From positions 248,001 through 312,000 of the forward strand of contig JAUIHI010000001.1 of the NCBI GenBank assembly GCA_030432295.1: a stretch of 64,000 bases of DNA, in the 5' to 3' direction. The position numbers and the translations under genes were made by a program. The notes under the pieces were generated by a model. The model saw only the letters and a program-made list of their open reading frames with translations, did no database searches and had not been told where the DNA came from. The stretch comes from Anaerolineae bacterium. GTDB lineage: Bacteria > Chloroflexota > Anaerolineae > Caldilineales > Caldilineaceae. This document shows positions 24,668-30,009 of the stretch, in pieces (position 1 is the stretch's first letter; each line of letters starts with the position of its first letter).

Positions 24668-26083
24668 TCATCCAAAGGCCATCATCATCCAGGAGACGAA
24701 GCCGCTGAATGTCTGGGGCGAGAGGGCCGCACCGCTGACGACCAGAATCGCGGCCAGGGCAACCAGTGTGTTGGGGAGCGGTTCTGGATTGTAGGTGGGC
24801 AGGCTGCGGGGGTCATACAGAATGCGGATCAGGCGCACAAAGCCGACAACGATGCCGCCAGAAGCGATCAGCACAATGGCTGCCACCCGCCAGTCGGTCT
24901 GGGCAACTGTCTGGAGCGCGGCCCAATGGCCTGTAAAACCCGCGCTCAGCGGAAAGCCAGCCAATCCCAGACCGCCCAGCAGGTAGGCCGAGGTGCTCCA
25001 GGGCAGGGCGCGGCCAATTCCCCGCATGGGTGATGGCTCCAGCGAGCCAGCCGCCTGGCGCAAGTTCGCCAAACCCACCGCACTGGCCAGTGTGCTCAGA
25101 ATTCGCAGGCCAAACAAGAAAATGACCAGGGCTGCACCGCTGTTGCCCGGCGCGGCCAGCATCAGCAGAATCAGCCCCCAATCGTGGAGCAGCGCATAGC
25201 CCCACAGCCGTCCCGGATGGCTGGACCCCGCCGCGGCCACCCCGCCCCACACCGCGGTCAGCAGACCGGCCCCGGTTAGCCAGAGACTCAAAGCGAAGTT
25301 TTCCCCAATAAATGGGAAGAGTGCTGTCAACCGCAGCAAAAGGGTCAAGCAGGCCAATTGGTAGAGGAGCAGAAGGAATGCCACGGCAATGGGTGGACTG
25401 TTTTCTGCCAGGGCTGGCCCTGCGCTGTGCAGAGGCACGGGCGCAAGCAACAGTAGCAACCCTACGCCCAGAAAGCGGGCCGCGGCGACCCCAGCCAGTG
25501 TATCCTGGGGATTGATGGAGAGGGAGTCGATATGCCAGGAAGCGAGAATAAAGAGCGGAAATGCGATCAGCGGTGGCAAAAGGGAACGCAGGGGGCCGAG
25601 CGTGCCGCCCAGCCGTCCGGCCTGAAGTGCATAGACGCCCAATGCGGTCAGCACAGCCAGAAGCGCGGGCGTCAACAGCAGCGGATTGATGGGCGCGTCG
25701 GTCAGCAGCAGGAGCAGGCAATAGCCGCAGGCCAGGGCCAGGGCAAAGGGCGGGAAGCTGCGTCCCTGGCCTGCCAAGCCATTGAGCAGAAGGGCCGCGG
25801 CAGTCAAAAGCAGGGTCAGGCCCAGAAAAGGCACCGCGGTTGGCGTCAGATGGAAGGTCAGATCGAAGCGCACAATCGTTGCCTGCATATCCACCTGCAC
25901 CAGCCTGCCCAGGATTTGGACTACACCCTCTGTCGATGCGTCGCCCAGCAGCCAAAGGGCAAGCACACCTGTGATCAGCCCGGCCAGCCCGGATACGATG
26001 CGTTCCATACGCCGGAAAAGGTAGGCGATCAGCGCCAGCAGCAGCAGGCCAAAGGGCAGAACGAGCGGGAAAGGGAGTATCAT
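24668..26083 (-). CDS. Divergent NuoN/NuoM-like antiporter-type membrane subunit
   Basis: A 471-residue protein with about 13-14 membrane helices, resembling the proton-antiporter subunits of complex I. The region LLAPVPLHSAGPALAENSPPIAVAFL matches the family segment that normally reads K-x-A-x-x-P-x-H-x-W-L-P with a preceding key lysine, but that lysine is missing. GFPLSAGFTGHW matches G-x-P-x-x-x-G-F-x-G-K with Lys changed to His. The loss of both charged residues makes conventional proton pumping doubtful. Its start overlaps the upstream membrane gene by four bases. It is the last gene of a four-gene membrane operon. Confidence 0.7.
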   Translation of the reverse strand: MILPFPLVLPFGLLLLALIAYLFRRMERIVSGLAGLITGVLALWLLGDASTEGVVQILGRLVQVDMQATIVRFDLTFHLTPTAVPFLGLTLLLTAAALLLNGLAGQGRSFPPFALALACGYCLLLLLTDAPINPLLLTPALLAVLTALGVYALQAGRLGGTLGPLRSLLPPLIAFPLFILASWHIDSLSINPQDTLAGVAAARFLGVGLLLLLAPVPLHSAGPALAENSPPIAVAFLLLLYQLACLTLLLRLTALFPFIGENFALSLWLTGAGLLTAVWGGVAAAGSSHPGRLWGYALLHDWGLILLMLAAPGNSGAALVIFLFGLRILSTLASAVGLANLRQAAGSLEPSPMRGIGRALPWSTSAYLLGGLGLAGFPLSAGFTGHWAALQTVAQTDWRVAAIVLIASGGIVVGFVRLIRILYDPRSLPTYNPEPLPNTLVALAAILVVSGAALSPQTFSGFVSWMMMAFG

Positions 26084-26820
26084 CGGGGATTATCGCCTTG
26101 CTGGGCGCGCAGCACCAGATCCGTCAACCGAAGGCGCCACTCTACCAGTTTTTCGTTTAGTGGCGGCTGGGGCGGTGTGTCGGCTGGGAAGACAACATCG
26201 GTGATGGGCGGGCTGTTTTCGGCCAGGGCGAGATTTTCGGCCAGCAGGAGATAGGCGCAGGCCAGGGCCACCAGCAGGAAGACAGCGCCGAGCACAACAA
26301 CGACAACCGCGGCAGGTGTCACCGCCAACAGCGCGATCTCCGCGCCAATCAACCAGAGGAGGAGCGCCAGACCGTTTTGCAGCGCGCCTTCGCCTGTGGA
26401 AATTCCAAAAATGGCACAGAGGGCCAGCCAGAGAACCGTCCGGGTCATCTGTGAGTCCAGCAATGGCAGCAGGTTGGTGAGATCCACAGAATTGAGGAGA
26501 AAGCCGCCAAGGCCGAGGAGGAGGCCACGGAACATAATGGTTCCCACCCGTCCATTTGTGGTGACCGGGGCTGACTGTTGGGCAGAGAGGAAGAGGATCA
26601 GCAAGCAGCCGACCACCACCCAGGCAAAGACCCGGCCCCATTCATCGGGGATCAGACCCCGCTGGACTGCGACCTGGCCTATCAACAATTGGACAAAAAG
26701 GGTGGCGGGCAGACTGATGCGCCAGTCCCAGACCAGCACGGCCAGACCGGCCAAAAGGCCGATTAGAAGCAACGGTGTGGACGACGACCAGAAATCCGTC
26801 CCAAAGAGAAAAGAGATCAT
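26080..26820 (-). CDS. Hypothetical polytopic membrane protein of the antiporter-like operon
   Basis: A 246-residue protein with about seven hydrophobic helices and a soluble C-terminal tail (LNEKLVEWRLRLTDLVLRAQQGDNPR). It fits no family I know, but its position between NuoL-like and NuoN-like genes and its size suggest a role comparable to the small membrane subunits (NuoJ/NuoK or MnhC/E) of complex I or Mrp systems. It overlaps the downstream gene by four bases (ATGA) and lies four bases after the upstream gene. Confidence 0.65.
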   Translation of the reverse strand: MISFLFGTDFWSSSTPLLLIGLLAGLAVLVWDWRISLPATLFVQLLIGQVAVQRGLIPDEWGRVFAWVVVGCLLILFLSAQQSAPVTTNGRVGTIMFRGLLLGLGGFLLNSVDLTNLLPLLDSQMTRTVLWLALCAIFGISTGEGALQNGLALLLWLIGAEIALLAVTPAAVVVVVLGAVFLLVALACAYLLLAENLALAENSPPITDVVFPADTPPQPPLNEKLVEWRLRLTDLVLRAQQGDNPR

Positions 26821-26824
26821 ACGA

Positions 26825-28621
26825 TTAACTCAGCATAAAGATACTGATCAGGGCAAAGGCGATGAGCCAGCCGACCGCACCCCGCCCTTCCATAACGCCC
26901 ATTGCCGCATCCCAGATCGATGCACTGCGTTCTCCCCCCCAATTCGTAAGCTGGGCGAACCATTCCAGTCCGGCCACATAGGCCAGGCGGTCAGGCCAGG
27001 CTCCCAGAATTTTCCAGAAGAAGGGGCGCACAACTGCCAGCCCCATACCCAGAAAGAGGGGCAATCCAAGGGTCAGCCAGACCGGCACATCCGCCACCGC
27101 GCTGGGCGGGTTGCCTACATTGGCCGGAATCGTATTGGTGATGCCCGCCAGCGCAGCTACAAATTCCGGGAAGATGCCCGCCACCACCAGCGGAATCGAA
27201 AGGATAACCGAAGAGAGCAGCAGCCGCCAGGCCAGGGGCGAGGAACGGCCCGTCGGGTCCTGGGGCTGCGCGCCCCAACTGCGCAACATGGCCGAAACGT
27301 AGATTGTTTGGGCCAGGATATAGGCGACAAAAAAGGGCATGACCAGATTGCCGGAGAATTCGCCGGAGAGCAGCCGGGCAATCGCTGATTGGGTCAGAAA
27401 ACCGGGGGTAAAGGGCACGCCGACCAGTGCCAGCGCCCCCACACTGACCGGAATCTGCCAACCCCACTCCCGCCAGATGCGCTCACCCACCAGCCAAAGA
27501 CCGCCGCCCAGGGCAAAGGTGGTGGTGGGCCAGATCAGCGCAGCCGGTCCCCGCGCGCCGGACAGAATGCTGGTCAGGCCAGCGATGCCGACGGATGTGA
27601 TGAGCACAAAAGTCGTATGGCCCGGTTTTTCGCTGACTGTATAGGCGGCGAACGCGCTGCTGAGGAGTGTCAGCAGGACGACGCCCACAAAGACCGGCTG
27701 CAACAGTAGCTCTTTGCCGCCCAGCCCAATGGCCCAGCCCAGCAGCCAGAGACCACACAGGCCAGGGACCAGATGGTCCAGAAAACGGTCGGGGAGACGC
27801 AGGCGCAGACTGTTGGCCGGGAGCAGCCAGAGGTGGAAAGGATAGGAACCGGCCCGAATGGCCGCGGCTACCAGCAGCATAGCGACTGTTTCTGTGGGCA
27901 GGGAGCCGCCCAGCAGGGGCTGGCCTGGCCCGGATGTGCCGGCAGGCAGCAGGCCAATCAGCAGGAGCAGCGCGCCAAAGAGACTGAAGCCCTGGGCCTG
28001 GTTGACAAAGAGAAAGCGGCCTGGGCTGTCGTTGTTGTCGGTGAGTTCCAGAGAAGGGGGGGCCAGCGCGTTGCGCGCCAGAATCAGCAGGTCCATCACC
28101 ACCCACGTCATAATGACTGTGAGCAGATTGCCGCTGCCCACAAAGAGCAGCGCCGTGGCCAGTACGGCCAGATTGGCAGTCAGGGTAGATGTGATCTGAT
28201 GGACAGTATCGGCTGTGCTTGCGGCCTCTGGTCTCCCCCCGACAAAGACACTGAGGAGAATCGCCACACCGCCCAGCAGCAGAATCAGCACAGAGACGTA
28301 CCAGTTCCAGCCGTCGCCCACCCAGAGCAGATTGAAGCCGGGGAGGATGACAGGCTGCCAGGGACGGCTGTAGATGGGGACGACCGGCTGCATACGCAGT
28401 CCGATTGTCTGGATCACCGCAATCAGCCAGAATACGAAGGCCGCGGTCCCGGTCAGGTCAATATTGGCCGTGCGTTGGCCGATTTGCCATACGAGAAACG
28501 CGCCAAAGGCCAGGACCAATGGCGGGCCGACGGGCGATGTGAGGAGATCGAGAAAAGCGTTGAGAATTGTCACAACTGGAAATTGTATCACAGGCCAGGA
28601 GGAAGTTTCTATTTGGCCCAC
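26825..28621 (-). CDS. Divergent NuoL/NuoM-like antiporter-type membrane subunit
   Basis: A 598-residue protein with about 14-16 membrane helices. The family landmark is readable as AAAIRAGSYPFHLWLLPA, corresponding to the motif with a key lysine before A-x-x-P-x-H-x-W-L-P, here Arg. The helix that normally carries a conserved glutamate reads TWVVMDLLIL, with Asp. The later G-F-x-x-K segment reads TPGFLTQSAIA, without lysine. Starts are ambiguous: GTG 28621, or GTG 28573 giving VTILNAFLDLL; neither has a strong ribosome site. No peripheral-arm complex I genes are nearby. An ion-translocating or structural membrane complex is likely. Confidence 0.7.
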   Translation of the reverse strand: MGQIETSSWPVIQFPVVTILNAFLDLLTSPVGPPLVLAFGAFLVWQIGQRTANIDLTGTAAFVFWLIAVIQTIGLRMQPVVPIYSRPWQPVILPGFNLLWVGDGWNWYVSVLILLLGGVAILLSVFVGGRPEAASTADTVHQITSTLTANLAVLATALLFVGSGNLLTVIMTWVVMDLLILARNALAPPSLELTDNNDSPGRFLFVNQAQGFSLFGALLLLIGLLPAGTSGPGQPLLGGSLPTETVAMLLVAAAIRAGSYPFHLWLLPANSLRLRLPDRFLDHLVPGLCGLWLLGWAIGLGGKELLLQPVFVGVVLLTLLSSAFAAYTVSEKPGHTTFVLITSVGIAGLTSILSGARGPAALIWPTTTFALGGGLWLVGERIWREWGWQIPVSVGALALVGVPFTPGFLTQSAIARLLSGEFSGNLVMPFFVAYILAQTIYVSAMLRSWGAQPQDPTGRSSPLAWRLLLSSVILSIPLVVAGIFPEFVAALAGITNTIPANVGNPPSAVADVPVWLTLGLPLFLGMGLAVVRPFFWKILGAWPDRLAYVAGLEWFAQLTNWGGERSASIWDAAMGVMEGRGAVGWLIAFALISIFMLS

Positions 28622-28677
28622 TGCTGCTGTTTGGCCTGTCGGATTATTTACTGCCCCGCGTTATTTACTACGCCGCA

Positions 28678-29019
28678 TTACTTACTGCGCCGCTGGCGAA
28701 ACTCGCCCACTATGCCGCCCAGGGCACAAAAGGCCGCGGCCAGAATGGCATAGCTCCAATTGTTGCCGGGTAGGACAAAGAGCGCCATGACGGGCATACT
28801 GAGCAGCCCGCCCAGCATGGCGTGGATCGCGGCACGCTGGCCCACATAGAATGCCGTGGCCAGCCCGGCCAGGAGACTCCCGACCAGGGGCAGCCCGGCC
28901 AGCAGCTCGTTCCCCGCGGCTAGCCCGCTGGCAATGAGCAGGCCCAAGGTCACCAGCAGCAGATTGGCGGCTAAGGCGAAGATGATTCCGGCAGGGCGCA
29001 GGGGTGGACGAGCGGGCAT
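28678..29019 (-). CDS. Small four-helix membrane protein
   Basis: A 113-residue protein with about four hydrophobic helices (FALAANLLLVTLGLLIASGL, LPLVGSLLAGLATAFYVG, MLGGLLSMPVMALFVL, YAILAAAFCALGGIVGEF) and a basic C-terminus. Not a recognised family. It is the first gene of the leftward membrane operon and precedes the NuoL-like gene by about 60-100 bases. Confidence 0.65.
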   Translation of the reverse strand: MPARPPLRPAGIIFALAANLLLVTLGLLIASGLAAGNELLAGLPLVGSLLAGLATAFYVGQRAAIHAMLGGLLSMPVMALFVLPGNNWSYAILAAAFCALGGIVGEFRQRRSK

Positions 29020-29154: not shown

Positions 29155-30009
29155 CTATTCACCGTTCACTATTTCTAATTCCCCCCACACCGGCTCTGAA
29201 TATTCCTGCCGCCGCCAGCGGTAGCCCGGCTCGGCGATGACACCCGGCTCTGTGGCGGTCAGGAGCAGACGCAGGCTTTCGAATAGGATTGTGCGCTGTT
29301 GGGCCGGGGCATTTGCTTCGCCCAGGGGGTGGCCCAGGGGCCATTTGACAAAAAGGGCGCGGGGCACGCCCACATTCTGGGTAATTTCCAGCGCCAGCGA
29401 AATGGCGACTGTGGGAATACCCGCCGCCTCAATCTCCCGTGTGACCAGCCCCACGGACCGGTTGCAGAGTCCTCAGGCAGGGGTGAGGAAGGCGAAGTCC
29501 ACACCGTCGGCCCGCAGTTTGGCCGCAATCTCCGGGGCTGTCTTCTCTTGCAGACGGCGCAAATGCTCCCCTTCGATGTGGCCCATCAGCCCGAAATGGC
29601 GGCGGGCTACGCCGCCAATGACTCCCCGTTGGGCCAATTCCCGGAACTGTTCCAGGGGGAAGATCACATTCAAGTCCCGGTCCGCGCTGCTGTGATTGTA
29701 GTAGTCGTGGGTGATAGTTAAGTCGGCCAGGGCCACATCGCCGGGAATCTCGCGCAGGGTGGCGTCGCCGTCCGGGTCGGCCATATCGAAGGCTGGCTGG
29801 CTGGTCAAGTGGACGCCGCCGGTGGTGATCAGCGCAACTGTACATTCGGCCAGGGGTTTGGTCAGATGGGCAAAGGGGGTGGGGCCGTCGGCGCTGCTGC
29901 GGACGCGGCGTACAAAACGGCCAGCCCACCACTCCGCCACCGCGGGAATGGCGAAGAAGCGGTTTTGCAGGCGCTGTATGAAAGAGGCAGAAGGCTTGGG
30001 ATTGCTCAT
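29155..30009 (-). CDS. GrdB/PrdB-family selenoprotein with in-frame TGA (Sec179)
   Basis: Read through a TGA at 29473-29475, one frame gives 284 residues. The N-terminal part has family segments TVALITTGGVHLTSQPAFD, HDYYNHSSADRDLNVIFPLE and RGVIGGVARRHFGLMGHI, typical of glycine/betaine/D-proline reductase component B proteins. The TGA falls in FLTPA-U-GLCNRSVGLVTREIEAAGIPTV, exactly where these families carry the redox Sec or Cys (UxxC), and homology continues without a frame change. A hairpin with a bulged U and GUGG loop follows the UGA (29444-29462), as in bacterial SECIS elements. Treating this as two genes or a pseudogene would be wrong if the host makes Sec. No glycine-reductase partners are nearby; function open. 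Confidence 0.87.
29444..29462 (-). promoter_or_regulatory. Putative bacterial SECIS hairpin
   Basis: On the minus strand, counting U of UGA as 1, bases 14-18 (ACCGG) pair with 28-32 (CUGGU), U19 is bulged, CC20-21 pair with GG26-27, and GUGG forms the loop. The E. coli fdhF element likewise has a bulged U and a GU-containing loop at about the same distance (loop starting near base 21). Confidence 0.7.

Follow-up and report, generated by a model that had tools for sequence, protein, structure and literature searches.

The question raised by this locus is whether a TGA in the middle of a long reading frame is a stop codon or encodes selenocysteine (Sec) and, if the latter, what kind of enzyme the frame encodes. 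The gene, which is PrdB-like, lies on the minus strand at 29155..30009 of the window, by which we mean the whole stretch of 64,000 nucleotides analysed here (C16:248001-312000 of the host genome G000, which is 6.7 Mb in size and 100% complete). It begins with an ATG at 30009 and ends with a TAG at 29155-29157, and read-through translation gives 284 codons plus the stop, in which the sole in-frame TGA is codon 179 (29473..29475, minus strand; context ...FLTPA-U-GLCNRSVGLVTREIEAAG...), as the sequence-only reading had described. TGA is a normal stop in the code of this host, which favours taking the locus at face value, i.e. as a pseudogene, as the product of a sequencing error or as a gene for a functional protein of 178 aa.

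Several observations speak against a real stop, starting with the sequence downstream of it. The read-through protein matches TIGR04483 (PrdB) with 176.7 bits (5e-52) over residues 45-266, and the match is unbroken across the TGA. It also scores above the cut-off of PF07355 (33.2 bits, 4e-8, cut-off 22) and marginally passes that of TIGR01918 (67.2 bits, cut-off 65.45), while several members of the clade fall just under the latter. Comparison with the orthologue from a Litorilinea aerophila MAG gave dN/dS values of 0.104/0.787 upstream of the TGA and 0.156/0.752 (about 0.2) downstream, so that purifying selection is similar on either side, and the earlier claim of family-like sequence flanking the TGA was borne out.

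The codon itself is also conserved. Scanning the genome collection with peptide patterns that leave out the TGA site returned 33 loci, 31 of them with TGA at the aligned codon; the remaining two were weak Roseivirga matches that did not look like members. After enlarging the set by a phylum search and a search for relatives, we found TGA at codon 179 in every homologue of the window type, defined by the motif U-G-x-C, from Chloroflexota, 'Deltaproteobacteria', Nitrospirota, Nitrospinota and SAR324. The Caldilineaceae orthologues (58-82% identity) all carry it, and the gene with its TGA is present in 13 of the 19 genomes of the window's own family, the window genome counted. A sister subfamily from other Chloroflexota has TGC or TGT at the site, with two close relatives retaining TGA, and Alphaproteobacterial forms have a Cys codon there. 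Counting every type together, 101 of 400 Chloroflexota have a PrdB-like gene. Hence true homologues all have a Sec or Cys codon at this position, where other residues would have pointed to a pseudogene, and the assignment of the TGA to the UxxC redox position of GrdB/PrdB proteins holds, with U179-G-x-C182 kept.

Ten nucleotides after the TGA there is a SECIS-like hairpin (29444..29462, minus strand), with an 8-bp stem formed by nt 14-21 and nt 25-32 and a GUG loop at nt 22-24, counting from the T of the TGA. It is kept in 72 distinct TGA homologues, of which 54 form all eight stem pairs, 17 form seven and one forms six, and it is absent in eight Cys homologues; the loop begins with GU in 71 of 73 sequences. 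The stem shows paired synonymous changes (CAG/CTG to CAA/TTG; in the paralogues, ACGTGTCC/GGACACGT). Against a null in which synonymous codons were re-drawn by local usage, the mean energy z was -2.73 for the TGA homologues, with p < 0.05 in 75% of sequences, and -0.14 for the eight Cys homologues. Thus, codon constraint alone does not explain why TGA homologues retain the hairpin. The sequence-only reading had also described a bulged U, and here it was right only in part: the stem and the GU loop after the TGA are conserved, but the bulge is not, as the window sequence allows U19 to be drawn bulged but only 14 of the 73 sequences overall do so, and U19 pairs with A27 in 53 and with G27 in 15 (68/73). 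The E. coli fdhF-type SECIS has a bulged U in its apical stem, whereas U19 is mostly paired in window-type hairpins; the difference affects how closely these hairpins resemble the E. coli element but has no bearing on Sec insertion as such. In authentic PrdBs the exact hairpin at the same spacing is not present.

The host genome encodes the complete machinery for Sec insertion, the absence of which had been named beforehand as an argument against a selenoprotein: selA at C16:235442 (577.9 bits), selB at C16:90188 (311 bits, or 333 with a neighbouring C-terminal piece), the tRNA-Sec at C47:11617 (66.9 bits against a gathering score of 47) and selD at C47:64444 (334.9 bits). The selD gene (C47:64444-65436; L019) has one in-frame TGA of its own and therefore probably represents a second selenoprotein of this genome, a Sec-containing SelD.

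TGA179 thus has every mark of a Sec codon, namely two-sided conservation, a SECIS-like hairpin and SelA, SelB, SelD and tRNA-Sec in the same genome. We rejected a pseudogene or sequencing error on the basis of the invariant TGA, the selection past it and the hairpin. Since dozens of homologues across several phyla have the TGA without exception and the full Sec machinery is present, a real stop of any kind, including one that yields a functional 178-aa protein, is hardly credible, and we are nearly certain that this is a real stand-alone selenoprotein gene.

What the selenoprotein does is a separate matter, and the closest known relative is PrdB. The window protein is homologous to PrdB (TIGR04483) over residues 43-268, i.e. 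over most of its length, with 35-42% identity to authentic plasmid-encoded PrdBs, and U-G-x-C is found in both, all of which would fit a true subunit of D-proline reductase if its PrdA were encoded elsewhere or had changed too much to be recognised. The authentic PrdBs were drawn from plasmid records, and in those from Terrisporobacter, Enterococcus and Ligilactobacillus prdA lies just upstream in the same cluster (on a Peptoclostridium acidaminophilum plasmid, L167:5926-6639, a gene annotated prdB does not have prdA among its immediate neighbours). However, five clade members including the window protein reach only 159-179 bits with TIGR04483, far under the equivalog cut-off of 300 bits that two authentic PrdBs clear with 420.5 and 406.7 bits. 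The window protein also differs by about 45 additional N-terminal residues. Core residues common to the superfamily, PrdB included, are H101, D112, U179-G-x-C182, E194 and R217, but Y103, H106, H144 and H227, which are invariant in the clade, are other residues in PrdB. In a quick IQ-TREE tree of 82 rows, with SH-aLRT support only, one branch (SH-aLRT 96) splits off the 37 window-type rows, separate from PrdB and GrdB.

The missing partner argues in the same direction. A search of the host genome with PF09338 (PrdA/GrdE) gave zero matches, in agreement with the sequence-only reading of a GrdB/PrdB-family member away from known reductase operons, and there were likewise none in 24 other clade genomes, which are MAGs and possibly incomplete. 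The search itself works, since the profile recognises authentic PrdA as a positive control and finds matches in nine of the same 400 Chloroflexota, none of the nine being in the families where the window-type gene was found (f1, f26 and f36). Because PrdA, which PrdB needs, is missing from these bacteria, the label 'proline reductase' does not fit the window protein. We therefore rejected membership in PrdB from the TIGR04483 score, the tree placement and the missing PrdA, and regard a true D-proline reductase subunit as improbable.

Nor does the protein belong to the glycine reductase type. GrdB, GrdF and GrdH (PF07355, TIGR01917/01918) have the superfamily and the Sec position in common with it but are about 435 aa long, against about 284 aa here, and the window genome is without their GrdE partner. 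The score with the GrdB model TIGR01917 was 57.6 bits for a cut-off of 602, so the protein lies far under the GrdB-specific models. Alphaproteobacterial Cys forms annotated as 'Glycine/sarcosine/betaine reductase selenoprotein B family protein' (WP_207415257.1, WP_035710215.1) also stand alone, outside Grd/Prd operons, but they have Cys for Sec and a C-P-x-C motif and are placed elsewhere in the tree. Structure gave little further guidance: no credible relative of solved structure was found by sequence (best E 0.025, an unrelated protein), and an AlphaFold model of the window protein (pLDDT 88.7), compared by Foldseek and VIA-align, returned generic Rossmann-like matches only, the best being a LacI-type regulator (Z 8.5), from which we neither deduced a function nor ruled out any fold.

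In the known GrdB/PrdB enzymes a pyruvoyl partner holds the substrate amine; that a whole clade retains Sec throughout yet has no such partner implies that it catalyses another reaction. Judging from sequence comparison, we put a probability of roughly 0.8 on the gene encoding a GrdB/PrdB-superfamily Sec enzyme that functions in the absence of a PrdA/GrdE pyruvoyl subunit, and we hold the mechanism that we propose for it with less confidence. In D-proline and glycine reductase, the substrate is anchored through a pyruvoyl group or another carbonyl and Sec is proposed to attack the carbon, after which the selenoether is cleaved and a selenenylsulfide formed (reviewed in PMC10298544); cleavage of the C-F bond in fluoroacetate is the proposed activity of a GrdB-like protein that has a GrdE partner (PMC10838667). 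U179 and C182 of the window protein may act analogously, on a substrate for which no pyruvoyl Schiff base is required. The Sec selenolate would attack an electrophilic substrate, or form a selenenylsulfide with an oxidised one, Cys182 would resolve the Se adduct as a Se-S bond, and thioredoxin or another dithiol system would recycle the enzyme. With the pyruvoyl group missing, an amino acid held as a Schiff base is an unlikely substrate. The role may be non-fermentative, as the sequence-only reading had inferred. A partner that is not related to PrdA could exist.

The neighbourhood offers one candidate for such a partner. Directly downstream of the PrdB-like gene lies a gene for a hydrophobic membrane protein of 113 aa (28678..29019, minus strand), which follows it in all Caldilineaceae loci with a long enough contig, even at loci where the ABC transporter and NuoN-like membrane cluster now lie elsewhere (L031/L143, L142). 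It has no Pfam or NCBIfam match. In Caldilineaceae this protein may be the partner, and the reaction may therefore occur at the membrane. The gene is part of a minus-strand cluster of membrane-protein genes at 24668-29019 (113, 598, 246 and 471 aa), in which the 598-aa protein likewise matches nothing in Pfam or NCBIfam and the 471-aa protein is weakly NuoN/MrpD-like; genes for HMG-CoA reductase and a putative HMG-CoA synthase come next, and the order is largely kept across Caldilineaceae. We rejected inferring the function from the gene neighbourhood, whose conservation is limited to Caldilineaceae; the RuvABC, HMG-CoA and ABC-transporter genes nearby look incidental, and elsewhere the context varies. 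In two genomes of one genus (L124:3778-8824 and L125), the PrdB-like gene ends a putative operon that contains a circularly permuted ATP-grasp protein, a Peripla_BP_2 protein and a DUF547 protein.

Other neighbours hint at thiol redox chemistry. In L128 and L129 the PrdB-like gene is immediately preceded by a thioredoxin gene, a weak FMN-reductase match stands beside it in L133, and peroxiredoxins are close to several Cys-type and other homologues. This redox context, which comes partly from sister subfamilies, is weak because the neighbourhood is not conserved outside Caldilineaceae. Combined with the UxxC motif, and with a 'proline reductase' label that is common in marine metagenomes (PMC2398784, PMC9402790), it would suit a thiol or peroxide redox enzyme, such as a thioredoxin-linked reductase or a peroxidase-like protein, rather than an enzyme that cleaves C-X bonds reductively. 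This account partly overlaps with ours, but superfamily members of studied chemistry break C-N bonds, with C-F proposed, beside a carboxylate (PMC10298544, PMC10838667), and the many invariant His and Tyr positions suggest a specific small-molecule substrate. We consider it possible but doubtful.

The wider family has been counted before. In marine surveys, genes named 'proline reductase PrdB' are among the commonest selenoproteins, with 42 in the Sargasso Sea (PMC1088965) and 235 in GOS (PMC2398784), and a later survey assigns 6.4% of its selenoprotein genes to 'proline reductase' (PMC9402790); these proteins share UxxC with the window clade but are labelled proline reductase. The PrdB label is also found on Anaeromyxobacter and Geobacter entries (PMC1794560). 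The surveyed marine proteins plausibly include window-clade members from SAR324 and Nitrospinaceae. The family as such is therefore not new; the new part is a distinct clade without PrdA, and no paper came up in the openly available literature that sets this clade apart or remarks on the missing PrdA. We would give about even odds to the wider proposition of a multi-phylum selenoenzyme clade, filed as 'proline reductase', that applies the Sec chemistry of GrdB/PrdB to a substrate yet to be discovered, has no pyruvoyl subunit, may act at the membrane and accounts for part of the marine 'proline reductase' signal. Should many of the marine genes fall into this clade, then a widely used functional annotation is mistaken, and it becomes possible to test for a Sec-dependent reaction that is not part of amino-acid fermentation.

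The host genome also has two PrdB-like paralogues, C39:66211-66921 (L099) and C45:181013-181723 (L100), which are of the U-P-x-C type with the TGA at the same position. Their hairpins are similar and their contexts unrelated, with a PAS histidine kinase in one case and a polysaccharide deacetylase and an S9 peptidase in the other.
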